Assembly (NCBI RefSeq): GCF_013394795.1
Contig: NZ_JABXYU010000001.1
Coordinates: 682,001 to 746,000 of the forward strand
Origin: Leptotrichia sp. oral taxon 223
GTDB lineage: Bacteria > Fusobacteriota > Fusobacteriia > Fusobacteriales > Leptotrichiaceae
Direction: 5' to 3'
Length of the DNA stretch: 64,000 bases
The notes beneath the pieces were generated by a model. That model was not told the DNA's origin. It saw only the letters and a program-made list of their open reading frames with translations, and searched no databases. Shown here piece after piece: positions 1,850 through 64,000 of this stretch; within the stretch, counting starts at the first letter, position 1, and each line of letters opens with the position of its first letter. The translations under genes were made by a program, and so were the position numbers.

Positions 1850-2686
1850 TTAATTATATAAAATCCCAAATTGCAGCATCACAAATAATATAATAAATGC
1901 AACTGAAAATCCAAGCAGCCCACCTGCCAGAACTTCCCTTATGCTATGAATCCCAGATTTAACACGGCTCTGAGCTACTAGTCCCGCCATAAAGAATCCT
2001 AAAATCAGTATTCTTATATCTGATGTCATAAAAAGCAGTATTCCAAAAGCCGCAAAAGCTATTGCGCTATGTCCGCTCGGCATTCCTCCTTCAAGAGGTG
2101 TCCCTTTTTGAAAAAATGACTTCAATACAATTACTAAAATTCCAACCAGAAGCAATATCAAAATCGAAATATTACCTTTCCGCCCTGCTATAATATGCAA
2201 TTTATTCGTACCGTCAAAAATATCCAGCAATTTGTCATAAAACAGTAAATATCCTACGCAAATTGCATTTATCGCAGCAATCAGAACCGCTCCGGCCGCT
2301 ACATCCTTAGCCAGTTTAGCAAGCGGATGCCTCTCAGGAGAAATCAGATCCACAAGCGCCTCAACTGCTGTATTTATAAGCTCGGTAATTATTACAAAAC
2401 ATACAGACAGTGAAATTATAAGAATTTCCACTTTGCTCGCATTTATCACAATTGCCAGAATTACAATTATAATTGCCGCAAGTATATGGACTTTCATATG
2501 TTTCTCATTCTGTAATGCCGAAATCATCCCCTCAATTGCAAAATTAAAGCTGTCTACAAGTCTTTTATCTCTTGCTCTCTCCTTCTTTATATCCCAATTA
2601 TATCTATCTTTCCTATGAAATAACCAAAATATTGATTTTTTATTTTTTTTATTTTTTTCTTCCAAAATTTTCAATCCCTTCTGCAT
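1850..2686 (-). CDS. Undecaprenol/diacylglycerol kinase fused to PAP2 phosphatase
   Basis: The protein joins two membrane enzymes of lipid-carrier metabolism. Residues about 40-155 are a DgkA-type kinase: the family signature ELINTAVEALVDLISPERH followed by KDVAAGAVL is clear. Residues about 165-278 are a PAP2 phosphatase with PSGHSA and a distal HSIREVLAGG, the two His-containing motifs of the family. In Gram-positive relatives the kinase phosphorylates undecaprenol, and PAP2 enzymes dephosphorylate undecaprenyl (pyro)phosphate, so this single protein might set the balance of the cell-wall lipid carrier. About seven hydrophobic segments are visible. It sits downstream of ybeY and the HD phosphodiesterase in the order common in Firmicutes. 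Substrate preference is inferred; the N-terminal 35 residues are lysine-rich and the exact start is uncertain. Confidence 0.9.
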   Translation of the reverse strand: MQKGLKILEEKNKKNKKSIFWLFHRKDRYNWDIKKERARDKRLVDSFNFAIEGMISALQNEKHMKVHILAAIIIVILAIVINASKVEILIISLSVCFVIITELINTAVEALVDLISPERHPLAKLAKDVAAGAVLIAAINAICVGYLLFYDKLLDIFDGTNKLHIIAGRKGNISILILLLVGILVIVLKSFFQKGTPLEGGMPSGHSAIAFAAFGILLFMTSDIRILILGFFMAGLVAQSRVKSGIHSIREVLAGGLLGFSVAFIILFVMLQFGILYN

Positions 2687-2728: not shown

Positions 2729-3190
2729 TCATCTGTTATAATTAAATCTATTCAAAATTTCTTCTTCCCGTCTTCTCATAACAACTTTATCTTCCTCTTC
2801 AATGTGATCATATCCCAGCAAATGCAGCATCCCGTGACACAAGACATAATAAAATTCCCTCTCGTCAGAATGTCCGTATTCACTAGACTGCTCTTTTACC
2901 CGCTCGATTGAGATTACAATGTCGCCTAGCATATTTACTGCCCCAAAGTTTTCGGTTTCATTGTAGGCAAAGGAAATTACGTCGGTTGGAGCATCTTTTT
3001 GACGGTATTCACGGTTTATTTCCTGAATTTGCTCATTTGTTGTAATTAATAATGATAAATAGTATTCATTTTTGTCAAATTCTTCTTTATATTCATCTTT
3101 TAAAATGTAACTGACGAATTCCTTTATTTTTTCTTTATCAAAAAAATCGTCAATTTTTTCAACATCATAAGTTATATCAATATCCAGCAT
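2729..3190 (-). CDS. ybeY: YbeY, rRNA maturation endoribonuclease
   Basis: YbeY is a zinc-dependent RNase involved in 16S rRNA 3'-end maturation and ribosome quality control. The zinc motif HGMLHLLGYDH is complete near the C-terminus, and the upstream DVISFAYNE stretch is typical. I place the start at ATG 3190 (MLDIDITYD) because a GGAG lies 7 bases before it, while the ATG four codons upstream overlaps that ribosome-binding site. The length (153 residues) matches the family. It lies between the PgpH-like gene and the kinase-phosphatase fusion, an arrangement widely conserved in bacteria. Confidence 0.95.
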   Translation of the reverse strand: MLDIDITYDVEKIDDFFDKEKIKEFVSYILKDEYKEEFDKNEYYLSLLITTNEQIQEINREYRQKDAPTDVISFAYNETENFGAVNMLGDIVISIERVKEQSSEYGHSDEREFYYVLCHGMLHLLGYDHIEEEDKVVMRRREEEILNRFNYNR

Positions 3191-3209
3191 AGTTTTCTCC
3201 ATTTTATTT

Positions 3210-5264
3210 TTAATCTTTTTTCATTTTTTCATCCATCTTCGGATATTTTATTCTTTCGTGATAAACTCCCTGTAATGTGTTTATAAAGGATTGTACCACT
3301 TTTTCTATTTCTCCCAAAGTCAAGTCAGAATCACTTAACTGCTTATCATCCATTTTTGATTTTACTAAATATCTGATAAAATTTTCAATCCCTTCCTTGC
3401 TTTTATTTTCAAGAGTTCTTGTAGCCGCCTCCACCGTATCTGCCAGCAGAATTATTCCAGATTCCTTTGTTCTAGGTTTAGGCCCGCTGTATCTGAAATT
3501 GCTTTCTACAACTTCTTCTCCACTTTCCAGCGCTTTATAGTAAAAATACTGTGTCAAGGTTGTTCCGTGATGTTCCAGTATTACGTCTAGAATCTCTTTT
3601 GGCAATTTGTTTTCTTTTCCCATAATATAGCCATCTTTTGTGTGTGAAGTCAGTATTAATGCACTTAATGACGGTTTTATCTTATTATGTGGATTTACTC
3701 CATCCCGCTGATTTTCCACAAAAAATTCTGGCCGCTTCATTTTTCCAATATCGTGGTAATATGAAGCTATTCTCGCAAATGTAGCATTTGCGCCTATACT
3801 TTCAGCCGCTCCTTCCGCCAGCGCTCCAACCATTATGCTATGGTGAAAAGTTCCCGGTGCCTTTATAAGCAATTGTTTTAACAACGTGTGCGAAAAATCG
3901 CTGAGTTCCAGCAATTTCATTGTTGTTAAAATTTCAAAGTAATCTTCAAAATATGGCAATACCGCAAGTGACAGCATTCCAGTTAAAACGCCTGAAAATA
4001 CTGAAAATACTATCATTAACATCATCAATCCAAAGCTTGACTGATTAACAAGTCCATAACTAAACGACATCAAAGCCTGAAATATTCCCAAAAAGAAACT
4101 TAATTTTACAATATCACTTCTGCTCACAAGGCTCGCAGCCTTATAAATCGCAACTAGCGAAACCGCTATTGTAACTAGAAACCACGATTCTTCCCGTGAC
4201 AGAATAATCATATTTGAAAATGTCATTATAATCGCATATGCCCTGTTTCCCAAAATTGTCGATATAATTGGAAGCATTGCAAATGGAAGTAAATAAATGA
4301 AATATTGATTATTTAAAAACAGAATATAAATCGTGTTTACAAATATTATTGTAATAAGTGTCGGATAAAATGCCTTTGATTCCACAACTTTTCTTGCATT
4401 TTTTCGTAACAAATAATAAATCAATGTCATAACTAGCGTAAAAGTAGCCACAAGTCCAACAGTTTTTCTAAATTTATCCCCATTTCTTACCAGATTCAGT
4501 TTTTCCAGCTTCAAAAATGTATCTGAATCAATAATTTCACCTTTTTTTACGATAATGTCCCCTTTGTAAATCTTAATTTCCTTATCTCTCAACGACATCA
4601 TATTATCTGCAATTTTCTTTTTTGTAGCTTCTTCATTGATAACAAGGTTGGGCTTTATAAAATTTTGAAGGATTTTCATGTCAATGTTGTCTGCCTTTAT
4701 ATCTTTTTTTCGGATTATTTTGGATAAATTTTCCGTTTTATAAATTCCATCACTATAAATTTCAGATATAATATCTGATAGGTTTACAGAATATTCTACA
4801 TTTTCAGTTCTTGCCGCTATTTCCTTAATATCCGCAATTGTAAACGTGTACTTATTTTCCTTTATATACTTTTCAATTGCCGCATTGTCAGATGGGTTCA
4901 TATTCCGTATGTCACGCAGAAATCTGTTCAGTGAAATTACAGTTTGCTTGTTTACATCTTTTATTTTATCAAATTCAGGCTGTGTAGTCTTCATTATTTT
5001 TTCTTCAATGCTGTCATCCAGAATATCCACAAAATAAGATACATTTTTATACGCCACAATATCCGATTTTGCAATGCTTCCAACAACATAATTCACATTT
5101 AGCCTTGACATTTCGATAATTATGCCAAATATCATAAATGTTATCGTCAAAACAATAAATCTGAATGTAAATTTCTTTTTGCTATTATACTTTATTTCAT
5201 TGCTTTTAGTTTTTTTTTCTTTTACTTCAAAAATAAATTCCCGCCCTCGTATATTTACTCTCAT
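3210..5264 (-). CDS. PgpH-type 7TM-HD membrane phosphodiesterase
   Basis: This 684-residue protein has the layout of the YqfF/PgpH family: a short cytoplasmic N-terminus, one membrane helix (about residues 33-50), an extracytoplasmic domain to about residue 265, a block of membrane helices (about 268-440), then a cytoplasmic HD domain. The HD metal motif is visible as HSIMVGALAEGAA followed by SYYHDIGKMKRPEFF and a distal LEHHGTT. Characterised members hydrolyse cyclic di-AMP, so a role in c-di-AMP turnover is the best guess. It is probably cotranscribed with ybeY 19 bases downstream. The RBS (AAAGGGAAA) sits just before the ATG. Confidence 0.92.
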   Translation of the reverse strand: MRVNIRGREFIFEVKEKKTKSNEIKYNSKKKFTFRFIVLTITFMIFGIIIEMSRLNVNYVVGSIAKSDIVAYKNVSYFVDILDDSIEEKIMKTTQPEFDKIKDVNKQTVISLNRFLRDIRNMNPSDNAAIEKYIKENKYTFTIADIKEIAARTENVEYSVNLSDIISEIYSDGIYKTENLSKIIRKKDIKADNIDMKILQNFIKPNLVINEEATKKKIADNMMSLRDKEIKIYKGDIIVKKGEIIDSDTFLKLEKLNLVRNGDKFRKTVGLVATFTLVMTLIYYLLRKNARKVVESKAFYPTLITIIFVNTIYILFLNNQYFIYLLPFAMLPIISTILGNRAYAIIMTFSNMIILSREESWFLVTIAVSLVAIYKAASLVSRSDIVKLSFFLGIFQALMSFSYGLVNQSSFGLMMLMIVFSVFSGVLTGMLSLAVLPYFEDYFEILTTMKLLELSDFSHTLLKQLLIKAPGTFHHSIMVGALAEGAAESIGANATFARIASYYHDIGKMKRPEFFVENQRDGVNPHNKIKPSLSALILTSHTKDGYIMGKENKLPKEILDVILEHHGTTLTQYFYYKALESGEEVVESNFRYSGPKPRTKESGIILLADTVEAATRTLENKSKEGIENFIRYLVKSKMDDKQLSDSDLTLGEIEKVVQSFINTLQGVYHERIKYPKMDEKMKKD

Positions 5265-5329: not shown

Positions 5330-7801
5330 TTACTTCATCCTTTTTAAAATATCATTTTTACTTTCCACCACCTTATTTCGTGGCAAAGCCGTCAAAAATT
5401 TCTTTCCATACATTTTTTTTATTATCCTATTATCAAGGATAACAATATTTCCGCTGTCCGTCTTGCTTCTAATAAGCCTGCCAACTCCCTGCTTAAATTT
5501 AATCACAGCTTGTGGAACCTGATAATCATTAAACGGATTTTGCCCATTTTTTCTAATATTTTCAATGATTGCCTCCGTTACAGGATCATTCGGCACTTTA
5601 AACGGCAATTTTGTAATAATTACTGATTTCAGCTGTTCTCCCTGCACATCAACACCTTCCCAAAAGCTGTCTGTCCCAAATAATATCGGATTTTTAGAGT
5701 TTTTAAATATTTCTATCATTTCGTGCCGTGGAAAGTCATTTTGCTTTATAAGCGTATATTCCTTTTCTGAAAATCGTGATTTTAACTGATTGTACAAAAA
5801 GTTCAAGGCGCTGTATGAAGTAAATAGTAAAAAACAATGCCCTTTCGTACTTTTTATCACGCCTTCAATAAATTCTTCCAAATCCCGCAGAAATTCAATA
5901 TTTGTCGGATCAAGCGCATCTTCTGGAATATAAACTTTCATTTGTTTTTCGTAATTAAATGGCGATTTTACAATTCTTTCGTCTATTTTCCTGCGATTTT
6001 CCTTCATAAGCCCAATGCTTTTTTTATAATAGTCAAACCTATTGTCAACAGCAAGTGTCGCCGAAGTAAAAATCATCCTGTCCATTTTCGTAAACAAGTT
6101 ATCATTCAGTTCATCCGAAATATCAAAAGGCGTCGCATATAATTTCACATTTGGACGGACTGTAGTAACATTAGCCCAGTAAACATATCCTTCTTCTTTC
6201 CCTTCCAGAATAAACTCAAATTTCTTATAATACTGCTTCAATCTCTCATAATATCTCGAAAATTCAAATAAAAACCCCTCTCTGTCTTCTAAATTATAAT
6301 TGCTCACAGTATTTAAAAACTTGTTGATTCTTATAACTAAATTTCCATAACTTTCCTTAAACTGACTATTAATTTCCATAACTTCACGAAAAGCCTTGTT
6401 ACTTCGCATTTTCTGCTTATCAATCTTTATCTTGATTTCCCTGTTGTCATTATTTTCTGAAAAAAGATAAATTAATTTATCAAAAATATCTATTCCCTTG
6501 TCATAAAACGTGTTCAATTCTGCAATAACATCTTCCTTCAATTCATCGGCTTTCTCATATTCTTCACTCGAAAGGCTCTCATTCAGATAAGCCATCAGTC
6601 TGACAATAGCCCCGGCATTGCTAGAATTTACCATAACACGTCTATTATAAATATGCCCCATAAGCCGTCCAAATGATATTTTCGACGTTTCAAAAGTAAA
6701 ATAATTTCGAGCCGTATCTTCTATATTGTGAGCCTCATCAAAAACAACAATATCATAATTTGGCAAAATCGAATAATTTGTATAAAATCCTGTCTGATTC
6801 CTAATTGCTAAATCTGCAAAGAACATATGATGGTTTACAATAAGAAGTGTCGCATCTGCAACATTTTTTCTAGCATTAAAAAAGTGGCATTTTGAATAAT
6901 ACGGGCATTTTACACCTTTACACATATCAACTTCACTATTGACTTTTTCCCAGATACTGTTTGAAATCTCGTATTTCAGCTCATTCCTGTCACCTGTTCT
7001 TGTAACATTTTTATCCCAGTCAATAAGATTTCTTATAATATTTTTTTCAGTCTTTTCCTCTTCCGTATCTGTTTCCTTCTCCGTAACATCTATATTGTAA
7101 AGCTTTCTCTTGCAAAGATAGTTTCCTCGTCCCTTTACAATCTGATAATTAAAGTCCTCGTCAATAATTTTCCTTAAAAGCGGAATATCCTTATTAATAA
7201 GCTGTTCCTGCAAATTAATAGTATTCGTCGAAACAATCAGCTTTAAGTTATTTTCAATGGCGTAAAGCAATGTCGGCAGTAAATAGGCAATCGTCTTCCC
7301 AGTCCCAGTCCCAGCCTCAACTATGAGCTTTTTATTCTCATTCACGCTATTTTCAATAAACTTAGCCATCTCATACTGTTCCCGCCGTACCTCAAACTTA
7401 CCAAAATTCCTATGAATAGCCCCATTCTCTCCAAAATATTCATCCACATCAATTTTTATAAATTCCTTTAAAGCCACAATCACGTAAATATCATCCACAG
7501 CGTTATTTACAATGTACGAAGCCCCTCCAACTTCCCCATATATGCTGGAAATGCTCACATCCTCATCAGACGGAATCAGCACTCCAGACGGATGATTGTG
7601 TATTATAACCTCATTTTTTCTCATCATATTTAATAATGCGGCAACAGAGCTGGAATTTCCCCGTGCTATCACTTCTACATCTGCAACAATCCCTTCCCCA
7701 TCTGGAATCCCACGAAAAAACACTTCATTTCCACCGGATTCCGCAATTTGCAGGCGCATTTTTTCTATTGTTCTCGCATTAATAAATTCAGCAACTTTCA
7801 T
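5330..7801 (-). CDS. dinG: DinG-family DNA helicase with N-terminal JAMM/RadC-like domain
   Basis: The 823-residue protein is an XPD/DinG-type superfamily 2 helicase with an extra N-terminal domain. Residues 1-120 hold a complete JAMM signature: Glu26, then HNHP (His68, His70), Ser78 and Asp81 in the spacing H-x-H-x7-S-x2-D, as in RadC and JAB metalloproteins. The helicase follows, with Walker A EAGTGTGKT (161-169), a cysteine cluster (LCKRK, then CKGVKCPYYSKC) expected to hold a 4Fe-4S cluster, a DEAH box (VVFDEAHNIED) and a C-terminal motif with QGVGRLIR. I chose ATG 7801 because AGGAGG precedes it. Related DinG proteins usually carry an exonuclease or no extra domain here, so the JAMM fusion is notable. 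A role in DNA repair or R-loop removal is inferred from the family. Confidence 0.9.
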   Translation of the reverse strand: MKVAEFINARTIEKMRLQIAESGGNEVFFRGIPDGEGIVADVEVIARGNSSSVAALLNMMRKNEVIIHNHPSGVLIPSDEDVSISSIYGEVGGASYIVNNAVDDIYVIVALKEFIKIDVDEYFGENGAIHRNFGKFEVRREQYEMAKFIENSVNENKKLIVEAGTGTGKTIAYLLPTLLYAIENNLKLIVSTNTINLQEQLINKDIPLLRKIIDEDFNYQIVKGRGNYLCKRKLYNIDVTEKETDTEEEKTEKNIIRNLIDWDKNVTRTGDRNELKYEISNSIWEKVNSEVDMCKGVKCPYYSKCHFFNARKNVADATLLIVNHHMFFADLAIRNQTGFYTNYSILPNYDIVVFDEAHNIEDTARNYFTFETSKISFGRLMGHIYNRRVMVNSSNAGAIVRLMAYLNESLSSEEYEKADELKEDVIAELNTFYDKGIDIFDKLIYLFSENNDNREIKIKIDKQKMRSNKAFREVMEINSQFKESYGNLVIRINKFLNTVSNYNLEDREGFLFEFSRYYERLKQYYKKFEFILEGKEEGYVYWANVTTVRPNVKLYATPFDISDELNDNLFTKMDRMIFTSATLAVDNRFDYYKKSIGLMKENRRKIDERIVKSPFNYEKQMKVYIPEDALDPTNIEFLRDLEEFIEGVIKSTKGHCFLLFTSYSALNFLYNQLKSRFSEKEYTLIKQNDFPRHEMIEIFKNSKNPILFGTDSFWEGVDVQGEQLKSVIITKLPFKVPNDPVTEAIIENIRKNGQNPFNDYQVPQAVIKFKQGVGRLIRSKTDSGNIVILDNRIIKKMYGKKFLTALPRNKVVESKNDILKRMK

Positions 7802-7955
7802 CTTTCCTCCTATAATAAAGATTTTACTATATAATAGGCTTTTTTTCAACTTTTCTTTTAAAAAATATAGAAAAAAGCCATTTAATATAATTCATAAAAT
7901 TATATAAACAGCTTTTTAAATTAGTTTTTAATTGTTAATTTTAATTTTTCAGGCT

Positions 7956-8576
7956 TTATTCGTTAATTGAACCATGCCCAGAATTTTGAAGGCTACAGCT
8001 TTTATCTTTTCCATTTTCTGTATAGACAGCGTCGTTTCCTTTCATGTGGATAGAAACATTTCCATTAGAATATTTTTCCCCACTTCCAGAAGTTACTGAA
8101 TTTAAAGTATAAATTCCACCATAACCGTCAGCCAGTTTTACTTTGTCTGTTGAAAGATTTTCTACTGTTACATCTTGATAACCGTCACAGCTGTATTTTC
8201 TTAGCAAATGACTGCTAGAACTTTGGCTGCTGCTTGAGTTGCCATTTCCTGTCATATAGCAGCTTTCATCGCTTCCATTTTTTGTAAATACTGCATCATT
8301 TCCCTTTATATGAATCGAAACTCCTCCACCTGTGTATTCTTCTCCACTACCAGATCTTGTTAATTTCAGATTGTAGACTTTTCCATTTCCATCTGTCAAT
8401 CTTACTCTGTCTGTTGAAAGATTTTGTACTGTCACATTTCTGCTGCTGCAGCTGAATTTTCTTGTTAAATTCGATGCTTTTTTTGAAGATTTTGCTCTCG
8501 CTGCTGAAAAACCAATAGAACTAAGAGCCAAAACTCCAACTAAAGTTGCTAAAATCATTTTTTTTGCTGATTTCAT
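7956..8576 (-). CDS. Secreted protein with two MliC-like (lysozyme inhibitor) domains
   Basis: The protein starts with a signal peptide (MKSAKKMILATLVGVLALSS, cleavage probably after the AARA region) and contains two tandem repeats of about 75 residues separated by a Ser/Asn-rich linker. Each repeat has the MliC/PliC pattern: an early Cys (RKFSCSS, RKYSCDG), a central SGSGEEY or SGSGEKY, then SIH(I/M)KGNDAV and a final Cys (ESCYM, KSCSL). MliC proteins inhibit c-type lysozymes in the envelope. Most have a single domain; the tandem form is unusual. No lipobox is evident, so it is probably periplasmic or secreted. A GTG three codons upstream is an alternative start. A putative promoter is listed separately. 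Confidence 0.75.
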   Translation of the reverse strand: MKSAKKMILATLVGVLALSSIGFSAARAKSSKKASNLTRKFSCSSRNVTVQNLSTDRVRLTDGNGKVYNLKLTRSGSGEEYTGGGVSIHIKGNDAVFTKNGSDESCYMTGNGNSSSSQSSSSHLLRKYSCDGYQDVTVENLSTDKVKLADGYGGIYTLNSVTSGSGEKYSNGNVSIHMKGNDAVYTENGKDKSCSLQNSGHGSINE

Positions 8577-8585
8577 AACATCCAC

Positions 8586-47813: not shown

Positions 47814-50800
47814 CTAGTAAATAGCTCTAAATCCTATTCCTGCCCTTACATTATTTCCTTTAGTGTCATATCCTCCATTTACTGTCACTCCGAATCTTGT
47901 GTTGTCAACTCCAATGTTCAAGTCAAACTTACCATTTCCTCTTCTGTCTTCCTTTTCCCCTCTTATTCCGAACCAGTCTGCGCTTGTGTATCTTACTCTT
48001 CCTTCGTTGTTCTTGCTTGCCATCTTGCCTAATTCGTTTTCATAGGCGGCTGACAATCCCACTGTCAGGTTTGTTCTTACTGCAAGTGGCTGTACGTATC
48101 TGAATTCCATTCCGACTTCCGGCTTAACTGAGAAGTAGTCGTTCCCTTTTACTTCCAGTCTCATTTCCCCTCTGTCTTCCTTGATGTCATTGAATCTTCC
48201 GTATTCCATCTTCAATGCTCCGTATGGACGTAAATGTGTTCTTTCACTCATTCTTATGTCATATCCCAAGTCTGTCTTTAATGCCGCTCCATAAGAATGA
48301 TAGTCAGATTTTGCCTGGAATACGTCATCTACAACCAGGTATCTACGTTTCATGTCATTGATACCTACGAATACATCTCCTCCGATTGTCCATTGCAATG
48401 CTCCATTGTAATCTTTCTTAGGTGACATTGTCTTAAAGATTCCTGCTTTAAGCTGAGTTTGATTTTCTCTTGAATGTCCTATATCCTTAAACTTGAATCT
48501 GTTTGTTACAGCTCCTGCATACCATCCGCTTGAGTTACCCATCTTGATTTTTTCATCTTCGTGAACGTAAGCCACACCGTAGGCATTACTTGTATAGTCA
48601 ATGATTCCAGCAGTGTCAGTGTTGTACTCATCTCTTGCACCAAACACTTTAATCTTGTTGTTTTGCTTAGACGGATTTCTCCAGTCGTGTTTCAGGTATC
48701 TGAATTCCTTGTCCAATATGTTTCCAGTTGCATTGATTCTTTGTTGAAGATTTCCATATTGATGTCCCATAATTTCGTCAGTTGCCTGATAAAATAAGAT
48801 TTCTTCATTGTTCCCTATTCCGCTTATCTTGTCAAATAACAATTTTTCTCTAGTTCCTAAACCTTCAACTCCATATCTTTGTTCCAGACCATCCAGGAAA
48901 TTGTATGTATCTGTGCTGTTTACAGGAGAATCTTTTCTTCCTGCCCATCTAGTATATGGAATTTTTGCCAGATAAGCGTTCTGTATTGTTCCATCTGTCT
49001 GATTTTGCGCCACGCTTGCCATCCATGTAAGTGAACCTGAATAAATGTTCCACTTGTTAATTTGTGGATTGTTTAAAATCATCTTGTTGTATGGTTCAAG
49101 AATTTTTTGGCTTACCTGAATGTATTTACCTGTCGTGTTCTGTGCAGCTTCAGCTCCTATTATCAAATCTGCATTTGTTAGCGTGCTCAACTTGCTTAAC
49201 CCAGTTACTGGCGTTGTAAATCGTCTGTTTGAAGTGTCTATATACATTCCTATTGTTGAAACTTCCATAGGCTTGTATTCTTCTGCTGTCGTTGTCGCTA
49301 ATTCAGGCACTACTGGAACTCCGTTTACTGTTATTGTTGCTGTTGATGAACCTGCTGGCGCATGTATCTTGACTCCTGACATATCTTTAGATATTTCCTG
49401 TCCCTCTTCTGGAACTTGTGAATCCTGTGCTCCGCTTCCTGTTATTCTTAAAGTTCCGTAATTCTTTATTTTCCCTATATTATGTCCTGCCGCATTTCCT
49501 TTAGCAAGCAAACCTACTGCTTCTTCTGCATTAATTTCTATTGTCCCGTTATTTTCTATTGTCGAGCCATTCTTGACTACCATTCCCACAACTTTTTTCA
49601 AGCCTGCTCCATTTGACTTGATTACTCCATTATTTATTCCATATGCTCCGTTGTCAAGATACATTCCTGTTGTATTGCTTGCGTTAAGGTTGATTGTTCC
49701 ATCATTTGTAACTGTCGTTCCTATTTCTGTTCCATACATTCCTATACCATATTCGCCATTTACATTTATTGTCCCCTTATTTACTACGTTTCCTGTATAC
49801 GCTGGCGTTGAGGCATCTCCAAAATATCCTGCCGCCATTCCTATTGCATATTGATTAGCTGTCGGATCCGGGTTTGAAGCTCCTACTGTTATTGTTTTAT
49901 TATTTACTGCATTTCCGCCATTTGTACTGTAAACTCCTACGTTTCCTATTCCTGAACCGTAGTTAATATCTGCATTATTTACTACATTTCCTGCTGAATA
50001 AAGTCCATAGTTTAGTGACCCTGTTGAAGTTAACGGTGTATTGTTTATCACTGTTCCTGATGTATCCCTTGAAAATACGAAGACTGTATTATCTCCAACT
50101 GTCTGTGAAGTCATGTTACTTGTTATTGTGTTTCCTGTTCCTTCATTGATAAATCCATATGAACCGTTACCAATTGCCATTGTAGAGCCTGCATCCGCTG
50201 TTACGTTGTTTCCAGTTCCTTTTGTATACACCCCAATCGCTTCATCTTCTCCCAGATTAATTACAGAACTGCTTGTCAATGTGACATCTCCATTTGTACT
50301 GAGTATTCCCTTACCTTTGTTTCCAATAGTCAATGTTCCGCTGTTTATTACGTTTGCGCCTTCAGAATAGATTCCATAGGCTTTTCCGCTTTTATCTGTT
50401 ATTGCAGCTGTATTTGTTAAGGTTCCTTTTGTCGCATAGACTCCAACGATTCCTTTGTCACTGCTTGTATTTACTATATTTATATCAGTCACATTTGTTG
50501 CTGTATTGTCATAGAAAATACCAGCTCCAGAAGCATTTGCAGAACCTGTGTATTTTATTTCAAAAGTTTTTCCATTAGGATTTACAATTGAACCGTTTGA
50601 AACAGAGATTCCTACACCTTTGTCCTTTATTTCCACTCCTGTATCCGATGTAAAGTTTACGACACTTTTTGTTCCACTTGCATAAACTCCAATTCCGTTA
50701 GTTCCTACTGCAATGTCTGAACTTCCTGTTCCTCCTAGATTAATCGTGTTTCCTTTTCCTTCAGACACTATTCCAACGCCACTATCTCCAGTCATTACTA

Positions 50801-53800
50801 TTTTACCATTATTTGTAATAACTCCATTTGAAGTTGAAACTAATCCTGTTCCTGCAACGTCATTTGTATTTCCATACAACCCAATTGAACCATTTCCTGC
50901 AACTGTTATTGTACCATTATTAGTTACTTCTAACACTTTATCAGCCGCTGTCAATGTTCCTTTTGAAATTTTATCATCCGTTCCATAAGTTTTTAATGTG
51001 GAAGCTGAGGCAAATCCTGCCATACCTACTCCGCTTGAAGTAATATTTATGGCGCTGTTATTTGTAAGGCTGCTTCCATTTATTCCATACGCTCCAATTC
51101 CGTTATCTACATTAATAGTTCCTTTATTATCAACATATCCAAAACTTGTAGACAATGCTGTTGTATTTGAAGGCGTACCTCCTGTTATATTAATTGTTCC
51201 GTTATTTGTGTATCCTGTAGTTGTGTTAGTTGTAACACCATCATGAGAAGCCATTGACAAACCTTTTCCAGTTGCAGAACTTACAGTAACTCCACTTGCT
51301 ATTGTAAATTTTTCATTTGAAAGTCCTACTTTTGTATTAAATTCATCTGTCGGATCATCTAAATTTTGATTGTTGTTAAGATTAAATATGCCATCTATGT
51401 AATATATTTTATATTTTTTATTATTTGTATTCAATGCAGCAAGCTGCATATCATTTTTTATATTATTTGAACCTGTAGTTCCGCCTGTCCAGTTGGTAGT
51501 ATCTCCTGTATAAGTACGCAATACCACGTTATCTCCGGTAAGGTTTACAGTTACATTTTGCATTCCGTGATATTTTGCTGTTGCAACAGCAGTATTTCCT
51601 TCATAATCAGCTGCCGTAGTTCCCGGCATTAATATACCGTCTGACATATTTATTGTTGTAGCTCCCTTGAAGTTTATTGCGGACGCATTAGTATCAGCAT
51701 AAAATGGCGTAGATTTAGAATGGTCCACAGTATCAGTTCCGCCTGCTACCACATTGCTTGATGTTGCTTTATTTTCATGATAAATGGCTCCACCACTAAA
51801 GTTTACAGTTCCTCCATCTGTCGCAACCAACGCACCATTTTTACCAGTCTGAATTTTATTACCCGTTCCATTGTCAATATTTACAACAGAACCAGTTCCT
51901 GAAGCAAATCCAGCCATACCGCTTATTTTAATGTTTCCTTCCTTTATAGTAACTGTTCCACCTTTTGAACCTGCTGCTGTTTTTGTAGCTAATGCTGCAA
52001 TATTTTCAAATTTATCAGTTGCAGCCATTGCATCTGCTGCTGTAATATCTCCAAAAATATTAACTTCTCCTTCATCCCGTGCAAATCCAATTATTGATTT
52101 ATGATTCACTGCTGTTGTAGTTATAGGTTTTCCTGTTTCTCCAGCATTTACAACACCTTTGTTATCACCCATATAGGCGATTCCTTCTTTTGAAGCCAAA
52201 GTTAATGGTATGTATATATTTACTTCAGAAGGTTGATCTTCTAATGCAGATGTGCTATTATCTCCTTCAGTTCTAGAACCTAACTTATGATCAGTTTGTT
52301 TCCATACACCTTCTGCATAGGCTACTATAGTTCCTTTTGAAGCATCGCTTTCTGAGGTAGAAGCACCATTTACACCATCTGAAAAACTTTTGCTCATATC
52401 ACTTGTAGATATATAATCATGCGTCGTTTGTTTTCCTATATCAACAGCACTCCCTTTTTTAGCTATTATCATAAATCCATCTTTTGAATATTTTCCAAAT
52501 TTTATGTCTATTTTACCAATCTCTAAGTTATGAATCTTATCATTATCCAATGAAGAAAGTTTTCCTCCATTTATAGTTGTAGCTGGAGTACTTCCATATG
52601 GGTTCCCAGTTGCATTACTGATTTTAGTTACAGTTACAGGAACTCCTAAATGTTTTGTAGGTATAATGTTTTTTCTTTGTCCAGATTCAACAAATACTCC
52701 CACAGCACCATCAACTGTAGTCGACGTATAACCAGTAGAACCCAATTGTCCATCACTTGTCTGTGCTGTTTTGTTGTCTGATGTTAATTGAGAACCGATA
52801 TTCGCTTTTACATCTATTTCCCCTTGATATATTCCTATGGAAGAACCTTTTGCATAATATTCATTTCTTTCTGGATAAGCATCTGCACGTTCCCAAGATT
52901 TCGGAACTGTTCCTTTCATTTTACTTCCAAAAAATAAAACTATATTCTCATCACCATAAAGATTTACATCACTTGTTTTTATAAGAGAATTCATACTGTC
53001 ATAAGGTTTACCAGATTTTCCCGAATAAGTTTTCCAATCAGTTTTATTCCAGTTAGGTATGTAACTAAAACTTGAATATACTATATTTGAAGCTCCATCT
53101 GATTGAATTTTACCCTCATTTGCAATTATTCTTGGAGCAGAAATTCCAGTTGTTAAATAAGCTGTATTTCCTTTACCATACATATTTATGTCTGTCTTCC
53201 CATAAATAGCGCCTGTATGAAAATCATTATCAAAATACTTTGTAATAGTTCTATACGCTGCTGGCATTATATAAAAAGCTGAATTTTCGGTACCAAACAT
53301 ATTTATTTTATTACCGCTAACCATATTTACTTGTCCATGTCTCCATGTTTCAGATGTTAAAAAACCTGCACGTCCATATAAATTGGCTGTTACATTACTT
53401 ACATTCATGTCTTTTAACGTATGAATAGCTATAGTCCCGTCAGTTGGCACTACTGGCCCACCTGAAATTCCATTCGTTGGATCAACTCCTCCTGAGGCAC
53501 CCGAACCTTGATCTGTATAAGTATCTGAATTCATATGTCCTCTAACATAAAAAGTAACATTTGATAAAGAGGTTCCAATTCTATAAAATATATTTGTAGG
53601 CCGATTTGATGTCTTGGTTGCCGTTCCTGCTTGTCCAGTTGCTGCAGCTCCAGTTACTGCATCATTTACACCATCTCCATCTGTATCATGCCAACTATTT
53701 TCTTGAATCCCTCCATAATACGTTCCACCTGTAATTGGGTCAGTAGTAGTTGTTGTACCTATTTCAGAAGTCGTTCCATTAAAAAAGAATCCTGTAAATG

Positions 53801-54566
53801 GGTTTGCATTCGGCTCAACAATATGTACTTCCTTCGTAGGTGTATCTGGTTTGGGCACTGTTATTGCTGGCGGTTCTGTTCCATTTACTGTCAGTGCTTG
53901 TAATCGTGGTGCTCTTATTCCCAAATCTGGAATATCTATGTTTACTGTTTTAGGCCTGATTGACGCTTCCACGTTCATTTCCACGATTGGTTCTTGAGCC
54001 GGATCATTACTTGCCAGTCCATACGATGACAAAGGAAGATTTTTTCTTTCATTTGATGAAGCTGAACGTCTATTTGCCCCTAAAGGTAATTCACCATAAT
54101 GCTTACTTAGAGGCGAAGTATATCTGTCAAATGAATTTGAACTTCTTTGAAATACTCCTTCATATGGATATTTCGTTTTCTTATCTCCACGTCCTTTATA
54201 AGTCCCGTTCCAGTTATTATTAAAATAATTTAAACCATATTGCCAGCTGCTCCATGGCGCTTTTACAACATGATCCCCCTGCTCCATTAATTGAATAAGT
54301 TCAAGATTTGTATTTTTTAGTAATTTGTCGTTTTCTTTCCGTGTCGCTTTAACTTGCTGATGTATTGTCTTAATTGATGTAGAAATTGCCTGTTTTTGAC
54401 TTTCAATACCTTTATTTGCCGAAGCTGAAAATAAATTACTTGTAACTGTTGTTACCAGTCCAGTCATTAAAAACTTTATCAACAAGCTGTCTGTATAGTG
54501 TACCTCCTTGCATCGCTTTGCAAATGCACATAAATCCCGTTTCACATTTTGCAAATTATTCGTCAT
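47814..54566 (-). CDS. Giant type V autotransporter adhesin (2250 residues)
   Basis: The protein begins NNLQNVKRDLCAFAKRCKEVHYTDS, the N-terminal segment that precedes fusobacterial autotransporters, followed by a hydrophobic stretch (LLIKFLMTGLVTTVTSNLF) and a coiled region. The passenger (about 150-1900) is Gly/Asn/Thr-rich with repeated short beta-strand units (NNGTINITGG, NKGTINVNGEYGIGMYG), predicting a beta-helix. The last ~300 residues form the autotransporter beta-domain, ending in a terminal aromatic (GIGFRAIY). Such proteins present adhesins on the cell surface. The RBS AAAGGAG lies 10 bases upstream. A single uninterrupted ORF shows it is intact. Passenger repeats may vary between strains. 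Confidence 0.92.
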   Translation of the reverse strand: MTNNLQNVKRDLCAFAKRCKEVHYTDSLLIKFLMTGLVTTVTSNLFSASANKGIESQKQAISTSIKTIHQQVKATRKENDKLLKNTNLELIQLMEQGDHVVKAPWSSWQYGLNYFNNNWNGTYKGRGDKKTKYPYEGVFQRSSNSFDRYTSPLSKHYGELPLGANRRSASSNERKNLPLSSYGLASNDPAQEPIVEMNVEASIRPKTVNIDIPDLGIRAPRLQALTVNGTEPPAITVPKPDTPTKEVHIVEPNANPFTGFFFNGTTSEIGTTTTTDPITGGTYYGGIQENSWHDTDGDGVNDAVTGAAATGQAGTATKTSNRPTNIFYRIGTSLSNVTFYVRGHMNSDTYTDQGSGASGGVDPTNGISGGPVVPTDGTIAIHTLKDMNVSNVTANLYGRAGFLTSETWRHGQVNMVSGNKINMFGTENSAFYIMPAAYRTITKYFDNDFHTGAIYGKTDINMYGKGNTAYLTTGISAPRIIANEGKIQSDGASNIVYSSFSYIPNWNKTDWKTYSGKSGKPYDSMNSLIKTSDVNLYGDENIVLFFGSKMKGTVPKSWERADAYPERNEYYAKGSSIGIYQGEIDVKANIGSQLTSDNKTAQTSDGQLGSTGYTSTTVDGAVGVFVESGQRKNIIPTKHLGVPVTVTKISNATGNPYGSTPATTINGGKLSSLDNDKIHNLEIGKIDIKFGKYSKDGFMIIAKKGSAVDIGKQTTHDYISTSDMSKSFSDGVNGASTSESDASKGTIVAYAEGVWKQTDHKLGSRTEGDNSTSALEDQPSEVNIYIPLTLASKEGIAYMGDNKGVVNAGETGKPITTTAVNHKSIIGFARDEGEVNIFGDITAADAMAATDKFENIAALATKTAAGSKGGTVTIKEGNIKISGMAGFASGTGSVVNIDNGTGNKIQTGKNGALVATDGGTVNFSGGAIYHENKATSSNVVAGGTDTVDHSKSTPFYADTNASAINFKGATTINMSDGILMPGTTAADYEGNTAVATAKYHGMQNVTVNLTGDNVVLRTYTGDTTNWTGGTTGSNNIKNDMQLAALNTNNKKYKIYYIDGIFNLNNNQNLDDPTDEFNTKVGLSNEKFTIASGVTVSSATGKGLSMASHDGVTTNTTTGYTNNGTINITGGTPSNTTALSTSFGYVDNKGTINVDNGIGAYGINGSSLTNNSAINITSSGVGMAGFASASTLKTYGTDDKISKGTLTAADKVLEVTNNGTITVAGNGSIGLYGNTNDVAGTGLVSTSNGVITNNGKIVMTGDSGVGIVSEGKGNTINLGGTGSSDIAVGTNGIGVYASGTKSVVNFTSDTGVEIKDKGVGISVSNGSIVNPNGKTFEIKYTGSANASGAGIFYDNTATNVTDINIVNTSSDKGIVGVYATKGTLTNTAAITDKSGKAYGIYSEGANVINSGTLTIGNKGKGILSTNGDVTLTSSSVINLGEDEAIGVYTKGTGNNVTADAGSTMAIGNGSYGFINEGTGNTITSNMTSQTVGDNTVFVFSRDTSGTVINNTPLTSTGSLNYGLYSAGNVVNNADINYGSGIGNVGVYSTNGGNAVNNKTITVGASNPDPTANQYAIGMAAGYFGDASTPAYTGNVVNKGTINVNGEYGIGMYGTEIGTTVTNDGTINLNASNTTGMYLDNGAYGINNGVIKSNGAGLKKVVGMVVKNGSTIENNGTIEINAEEAVGLLAKGNAAGHNIGKIKNYGTLRITGSGAQDSQVPEEGQEISKDMSGVKIHAPAGSSTATITVNGVPVVPELATTTAEEYKPMEVSTIGMYIDTSNRRFTTPVTGLSKLSTLTNADLIIGAEAAQNTTGKYIQVSQKILEPYNKMILNNPQINKWNIYSGSLTWMASVAQNQTDGTIQNAYLAKIPYTRWAGRKDSPVNSTDTYNFLDGLEQRYGVEGLGTREKLLFDKISGIGNNEEILFYQATDEIMGHQYGNLQQRINATGNILDKEFRYLKHDWRNPSKQNNKIKVFGARDEYNTDTAGIIDYTSNAYGVAYVHEDEKIKMGNSSGWYAGAVTNRFKFKDIGHSRENQTQLKAGIFKTMSPKKDYNGALQWTIGGDVFVGINDMKRRYLVVDDVFQAKSDYHSYGAALKTDLGYDIRMSERTHLRPYGALKMEYGRFNDIKEDRGEMRLEVKGNDYFSVKPEVGMEFRYVQPLAVRTNLTVGLSAAYENELGKMASKNNEGRVRYTSADWFGIRGEKEDRRGNGKFDLNIGVDNTRFGVTVNGGYDTKGNNVRAGIGFRAIY

Positions 54567-62802: not shown

Positions 62803-63861
62803 TTAATTTACATCATTCAAAAATTTGATGTTATCCATTGATACAGTCAATTCCTCGATGTCTGATTGAATATAATATTCATTTGTAGTGCTTATGTCCT
62901 CGTGTCCTAGTATATCGGTTATTACAACGCTATTTATTTTTTGATTGTTCATAAAGGTTGCCAATGTCTTTCGGCAATCGTGTGGCTTATGATTCATTTT
63001 TAACTCTTCCAGCGTCTTATAAAACTTTTCCCTGAAATAATTTGTACGTATCGGCTTATTTTCTTTTTTCTTTTTCTCAAATACCCATTTTTTATTATAT
63101 AACAAATATTCAGTTGGACTGCTCTCATATAGTCCTTTCACTAACTGAAATATATCCTTGTGTATCGGTATTTGTCTATGTCTCCCTTTTTCCGTCTTGT
63201 TTCCGCCGTTTATAATTCTACGCAGCAAGTCAACGTTTTCTTTTTTCAGTTCTGTAATTTCACCTATTCTCATACCTGTGTAAATCATAATTAAAATATA
63301 GTCTACCCACTGTATGCCAATATTATTCCACAGCTTTTGAATTTCATAGCCTGTAAACACGTTCTTTTGCCTTTTGCTGCTTTCCTTTGGCAACCTTATA
63401 AACTTCGCTCTGTTCACTGTCATTATCTCAAGTTCCATAGCATAATTGGATAATACTGTCAAAAAGTTCTTTGTGATCTTCTTTGTTGCTACACTGCAAT
63501 TAAGACTGTTTACTGTATCTTGCATTTGCGGTCCTTTTATTTCCCTGAATACTAGACTATGTAACGGCTTACATCTCTTAAAGCTGTTCTCGTAGCCTTT
63601 TATCGTGCCAACTGCAACCAGTCCTTTCTGATTCTCAATAAATAATCTATACAACCCCTTAAATGTCATTGTGCTGTTTTCTACGTCATAGGGATTGTAT
63701 AAATATTCATTCAGCACTTCCATTGCCTGTTTCCTTGTTTCATAATAGCCCAGCGATACCCTTTTCTTTGTTCTCCAGTCCGTAACCCTTACCCTGTACG
63801 GCTTTCTCTTTGTGGTTTTTGTTACACTTCCAGTACCATTTGCATTTTTTATTCTTTTCAT
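62803..63861 (-). CDS. Tyrosine-type site-specific integrase
   Basis: The 352-residue protein has an N-terminal arm-binding domain (GTGSVTKTTKRKPYRVRVTD), a SAM-like core-binding domain and the catalytic domain with Arg in TGMRIGEITEL, HDCRKTLAT (His-x-x-Arg), GHEDISTTNEYY containing the conserved His and the nucleophile Tyr. All catalytic residues are present. ATG 63861 is preferred (GGTGGAAGAA before it); a GTG/TTG upstream is possible. It lies at the right end of the window, beside the feo operon and the operator-like dyads, so it likely marks the boundary of a prophage or ICE that continues beyond the window. Confidence 0.93.
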   Translation of the reverse strand: MKRIKNANGTGSVTKTTKRKPYRVRVTDWRTKKRVSLGYYETRKQAMEVLNEYLYNPYDVENSTMTFKGLYRLFIENQKGLVAVGTIKGYENSFKRCKPLHSLVFREIKGPQMQDTVNSLNCSVATKKITKNFLTVLSNYAMELEIMTVNRAKFIRLPKESSKRQKNVFTGYEIQKLWNNIGIQWVDYILIMIYTGMRIGEITELKKENVDLLRRIINGGNKTEKGRHRQIPIHKDIFQLVKGLYESSPTEYLLYNKKWVFEKKKKENKPIRTNYFREKFYKTLEELKMNHKPHDCRKTLATFMNNQKINSVVITDILGHEDISTTNEYYIQSDIEELTVSMDNIKFLNDVN

Positions 63862-64000
63862 TTCTTCCACCAATCCAAAAATCTAGCTAATAGGCACTAC
63901 TCTACCCTATAATTTTAATACCGTTTTTTACAATAGTCAAAAAAATATTTTAATCAGTTCATTGTCCGTTAGTTCTAATAACTCTTTTATCCTGTATATT

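Follow-up and report, generated by a model that had tools for sequence, protein, structure and literature searches.

A conserved locus headed by JAMM-dinG

We analyzed a 64,000-nt stretch of DNA from Leptotrichia sp. oral taxon 223, referred to here as the window. The features considered are listed below, with the evidence for each in brackets.

1850..2686, minus strand: DagK and PAP2 protein, conserved neighbour (synteny; domain matches)
2729..3202, minus strand: ybeY-like gene, conserved neighbour (synteny; presumed ybeY family)
3210..5264, minus strand: pgpH-like 7TMR-HD protein, conserved downstream neighbour (Pfam 7TMR-HDED, 7TM-7TMR_HD and HD; synteny)
5330..7801, minus strand: JAMM-DinG ("RadC-like DinG"), 823 aa (open frame with ribosome-binding site; Pfam and NCBIfam; orthologues phylum-wide)
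5333..7420, minus strand: YoaA/DinG-type Fe-S helicase region, residues about 128-823 (Pfam, NCBIfam and structure matches)
6887..7114, minus strand: stretch with four Fe-S cysteines, C230, C294, C299 and C305 (sequence and alignment)
7427..7801, minus strand: RadC-like JAMM domain, residues about 1-125 (Pfam RadC, AF2, Foldseek)
7559..7600, minus strand: JAMM core HNHPSGVLIPSDED, with His68, His70, Ser78 and Asp81 (sequence and alignments)
7724..7726, minus strand: Glu26 codon, the JAMM Glu (conserved in Fusobacteriota and across phyla)

The 5330-7801 frame (minus strand) gives a stop-free translation of 823 aa. Because an AGGAGG sequence lies 6 nt ahead of the ATG at 7801, this ATG was taken as the correct start; an upstream TTG at 7849 was rejected, as the ribosome-binding site belongs to the ATG. 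In most of the Fusobacteriota loci examined, JAMM-dinG stands at the head of a dinG-pgpH-ybeY-dgkA cluster. We considered the operon partners as a clue to function and rejected them, since all three (pgpH, ybeY and dgkA) are housekeeping genes of a general kind.

Directly upstream of JAMM-dinG, the protein encoded at 7956-8585 (minus strand) contains two MliC (lysozyme inhibitor) stretches. Elsewhere in the window, a 2250-aa frame at 47814-54566 (minus strand) gave no Pfam match at E 0.001, and a phage-type integrase gene at 62803-63873 (minus strand) adjoins feoB near the window end, possibly marking a mobile element boundary. In genus g27 (L094, L114, L115), a stand-alone radC lies two genes upstream of JAMM-dinG on the same strand, and the gene adjoining dinG resembles a methyltransferase.

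A complete helicase of the YoaA/DinG type

The first-pass annotation had described an XPD-like helicase with Fe-S cysteines, and the analysis bore this out: the helicase, of YoaA/DinG type, is complete, and its motifs include Walker A (GTGKT, at 166) and DEAH (at 355) besides the four cysteines listed above. Pfam identified Helicase_C_2 (E 6.5e-50), DEAD_2 (E 1.4e-7) and DEAD. The best NCBIfam model was YoaA (NF053712; E 3e-179), and the helicase region is nearest to E. coli YoaA, an XPD/Rad3 helicase that partners HolC (chi); JAMM-DinG differs from YoaA in scoring 597.7 bits against a curated cut-off of 680, in carrying the JAMM domain, and in belonging to a phylum without HolC. HolC was found in 0 of 98 Fusobacteriota genomes, that of oral taxon 223 included, and the positive control was found in E. 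coli. A full-length structural model (pLDDT 87.2, pTM 0.81) matched E. coli DinG best (6fwr, E 1.8e-41), followed by S. aureus DinG, CasDinG and XPD.

Several helicase regions showed departures of their own. Judging from the alignments, among L013, L016, L018, L019, L035, L038, L085 and L086 a single Fe-S cysteine is replaced by Ser or Thr in several orthologues, and the Walker A stretch EAGTGT reads EAETGS in genus g5. In L015 and L017, two dead-JAMM proteins from the window's genus, the helicase region has a net charge near +20; the median for intact Fusobacteriota proteins is +1.

The N-terminal domain is a RadC-like JAMM domain

JAMM-DinG has E26, H68, H70, S78 and D81 in the JAMM/MPN+ spacing E-x(n)-HxH-x7-S-xx-D, so that the JAMM signature proposed in the first-pass annotation was recovered in full. 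Pfam RadC scored only 19.1 bits on the full 823-aa protein, under its curated cut-off of 22.1, the one result that would speak for a fortuitous motif or misjoined frames. The isolated domain, however, exceeded this cut-off (23.1 bits), as did the match in a genome search (23.4), and the RadC profile matched 25 of 25 cross-phylum fused domains (best E 1e-8), 19 of which also matched Prok-JAB. When the domain was modelled (AlphaFold2, 25 sequences), the mean pLDDT was 90.8 and the top PDB match in Foldseek was Chlorobium tepidum RadC (2qlc, E 2.8e-5). JAMM proteins of the proteasome, the signalosome, BRISC and archaea came next, and the best 50 matches comprised only RadC and JAMM/MPN-type proteins. 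TM-scores by query length were mostly 0.38-0.53, a moderate range that is expected because the 149-residue query includes the linker. On the basis of this model, we confidently predict that the N-terminal domain adopts a JAMM fold with RadC as its nearest structure. Given the conserved residues, the confident fold and a fusion that occurs in a single frame in dozens of independent genomes, a chance motif was ruled out, and there is next to no likelihood of a misjoined frame.

The fused domain shares with RadC (PF04002) the JAMM fold and the HNHPSG...PSxxD core (profile-profile E 1.5e-13), but the aligned fusion domains lack the D/S/Y/R loop, the downstream invariant His and the SFLEEG motif. 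By its sequence, therefore, it is a RadC-like side branch and not RadC proper. A separate RadC gene coexists with the fusion in most genomes. We rejected the idea that the fused domain replaces RadC, since RadC is also present where the fused domain is dead or missing.

JAMM-DinG is widespread in Fusobacteriota and beyond

A search across Fusobacteriota found a helicase-borne JAMM domain in 82 of 98 genomes (a hand count from the genome table), six of these with a dead active site. One scan yielded at least 23 fusions outside this phylum, and the matches listed came from Desulfuromonadales/Geobacteraceae, other Deltaproteobacteria, Spirochaetota, Gemmatimonadota, Sumerlaeota and Dadabacteria. 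Among the genomes sampled, the fusion was present in 64 of 149 from Spirochaetota, 14 of 148 from the phylum that includes Geobacter argillaceus and about 75 of 101 from Gemmatimonadota. These are hand counts of long frames with a strong match.

Orthologues conserve the JAMM residues. All five were kept in 63 of 68 aligned domain-bearing Fusobacteriota proteins, and the exceptions are lineages that lost them together. The catalytic set was present in every other-phylum sequence of alignment A4, although the Glu cannot be read in L132, which is truncated. It was also present in 39 of another 40 proteins, a sample picked to include the weakest scorers. The RadC-type HNHP motif was invariant in the cross-phylum alignment and in the further sample, dead lineages apart. 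JAMM-DinG is almost certainly a RadC-like DinG, chromosomal and vertically inherited. In one genome (G074, L069), JAMM-dinG is spread over three frames; it is whole in near relatives.

The active site has been lost repeatedly while the helicase was kept

At least three lineages have lost the catalytic residues as a set, and on two or more occasions the entire JAMM domain was deleted; the helicase was retained each time. In three species of the window's genus (G005, G012, G007), RVYP or RIYP replaces HNHP; both histidines are gone in all three species of genus g19; and L230, from the Geobacter phylum, also has a dead active site. The domain is absent from genus g16 and from a clade of small-genome genera in the window's family. 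The g16 and g5 helicases are true orthologues, because the same gene cluster is kept. The dead-JAMM dinG of G007 (L045:4967-7485) is split by a frameshift in two overlapping frames, which may reflect a pseudogene or an assembly error.

In a tree of the helicase region, the fusions separated from JAMM-less helicases with an SH-aLRT of 92. Within Fusobacteriota the tree requires two domain losses and two active-site losses, the polarity of change being inferred from midpoint rooting. The dead g19 is sister to the deleted g16, which suggests that inactivation of the site preceded deletion of the domain on this branch.

Divergence of the domain depended on the state of its active site. In intact lineages, the domain is about as divergent as the helicase (76.8% vs. 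75.7%, respectively, for the window and G022), whereas in dead lineages it diverges far faster (49.2% vs. 73.2% for the window and G012), with mean residuals of -3.5 to -6.3 SD. E26, H68, N69, H70, S72 and G73 vanish together in dead lineages; P77 and S78 remain. Because divergence speeds up once the ligands are lost, catalysis normally appears to constrain the domain. Dead domains still gave dN/dS values of 0.13 (G012/G005) and 0.15 (G070/G071), calculated by NG86 on two pairs with high dS; these low values suggest that the domain likely has a secondary structural or binding role. The active site is dispensable in several lineages and, since the helicase persists in them after loss of the site or of the whole domain, the domain is an optional catalytic accessory. 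We also considered SprT-like proteases as a complementary partner, and rejected the idea because their presence followed no pattern against JAMM state in Fusobacteriota.

Relation to known DinG proteins

The architecture itself is already known. A RadC-DinG fusion was noted in 2017, and in Cheng 2025 (PMC11981726), "RadC-like DinG" is one of ten DinG subgroups, for which the authors model the RadC-like domain, name the Glu/His/His/Asp site, list JAMM proteases as fold neighbours and record the absence of HolC. That paper defines the subgroup without experiments and states that there is no research on RadC-like DinG; our literature search did not find an experimental paper on one. JAMM-DinG has the same features, namely the fused domain, Glu/His/His/Asp, the motor motifs with the CCCC Fe-S set, and no HolC. 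The type protein, from Desulfuromonas soudanensis, is described there as likewise having Glu, two His and Asp in a RadC-like domain at its N-terminus, a YoaA-like helicase with Fe-S cysteines, and a genome lacking HolC, and we saw no difference in kind from the fusobacterial protein. What the fusobacterial branch adds to this account is natural orthologues with a dead active site or a deleted domain. New here are the prevalence of the fusion, its conserved locus and the repeated natural loss of site or domain.

Two further comparisons are useful. ExoDinG (e.g., S. aureus DinG, among the top structural matches of JAMM-DinG) and EndoDinG likewise join a DinG helicase to an N-terminal hydrolase domain, but the added domain in each is a nuclease whose fold is unrelated. 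FANCJ and SPRTN likewise bring together an XPD-family 5'-to-3' helicase and a metalloprotease-like activity; they are eukaryotic and made as separate proteins, SPRTN does not belong to the JAMMs, and the likeness is an analogy of mechanism only.

A proposed role in helicase-coupled hydrolysis

XPD-family helicases move 5' to 3' on ssDNA. As in E. coli YoaA-chi, the helicase part of JAMM-DinG would, by family, unwind in this direction on ssDNA using ATP. YoaA-chi was reported to run 5' to 3' on ssDNA and to unwind damaged DNA (PMC9826845). We propose that the helicase would load at stalled or gapped DNA and then translocate, and that the tethered JAMM domain would hydrolyze an amide or peptide bond in a protein met or stuck on the strand. 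From family knowledge, H68, H70 and D81 would hold Zn, Glu26 would act as the general base and Ser78 would assist the intermediate. Such helicase-coupled clearing would follow a logic like that of FANCJ, an XPD-family helicase that unfolds protein adducts in a step likely to precede degradation by SPRTN (PMC10175854), and which provides a precedent for unfolding followed by cleavage.

A catalytic role in cis is probable, and we tentatively put the probability that the JAMM domain is an amide/peptide hydrolase acting on proteins that the helicase meets on DNA at roughly 0.4, narrowly favouring it over the published nuclease proposal. Characterized JAMMs cut peptide or isopeptide bonds with this catalytic set (PMC300881, PMC11981726), and the full mononuclear-Zn set, Glu and Ser included, is kept across phyla in our alignments. 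The nuclease proposal, in which the domain is a nuclease or a nucleic-acid/nucleotide hydrolase that cuts the strand unwound by the helicase, is a real but lesser possibility. On the basis of domain context, Aravind and colleagues made the case for RadC-clade JAMMs as nucleases (PMC3482391, PMC5512222), and ExoDinG and EndoDinG have nucleases in their N-terminal slot (PMC11981726). The invariant RadC-type HNHP motif is also in line with a nuclease. Counting against a peptidase are this use of the slot, the ubiquitin-tail tunnel residues that RadC-clade domains are reported to lack (PMC3482391, PMC5512222) and the patternless distribution of SprT-like proteins. We know of no JAMM nuclease, however, which counts against the nuclease reading, and amide chemistry is the better match for a single-Zn site with Glu and Ser. 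In each phylum the fused domain is markedly acidic (net charge -4 to -12, and -10 in the window protein, vs. +2 to -6 for stand-alone RadC domains), which, as weak evidence drawn from sequence composition, may fit a nucleic-acid substrate poorly. Nucleases were likewise missing from our best 50 Foldseek matches and from a published DALI search with a related domain, which gave metalloproteases (PMC11981726).

It is improbable that the domain serves mainly as a non-catalytic binding or regulatory module, for partner docking or autoinhibition, with catalysis secondary. The purifying selection on dead-site domains would fit this, and the absent HolC anchor could call for another docking module, but across several phyla nearly every lineage retains the complete catalytic set, and sequence constraint drops sharply once it is lost. 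That the domain strips ubiquitin-like or other small-protein tags from proteins bound to DNA is very unlikely, even though Rpn11, CSN5, BRCC36, archaeal JAMMs and BubCD are among the structural neighbours: the tail tunnel is reported absent from RadC-clade domains and most bacteria with related toxin JAB domains are reported to lack ubiquitin-like conjugation (PMC3482391), and no conjugation genes were recognized in the dinG neighbourhood of the loci examined. Amide or peptide hydrolysis coupled to the helicase is, narrowly, our preferred reading. A bolder form of it, which we consider rather unlikely, would make JAMM-DinG a one-polypeptide machine for DNA-protein crosslinks or roadblocks, in which the helicase unfolds the adduct and the tethered JAMM metalloprotease receives it.

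RadC-type JAMM domains are common in bacteria, and it is disputed whether they are linked to DNA repair. Here a RadC-like JAMM is tied to a helicase of well understood biochemistry. The suggestion that the fusion offers a handle on RadC function is reasonable, with the reservation that the domain belongs to a RadC-like side branch and its active site can be dispensed with. Intact, site-dead and domain-deleted versions exist, and for some of them the surrounding gene cluster is shared between related genera; therefore the substrate question is directly testable with matched pairs. If the crosslink machine were real, it would be the first defined role of a RadC-clade JAMM, and its natural pseudoenzyme relatives would act as built-in controls.
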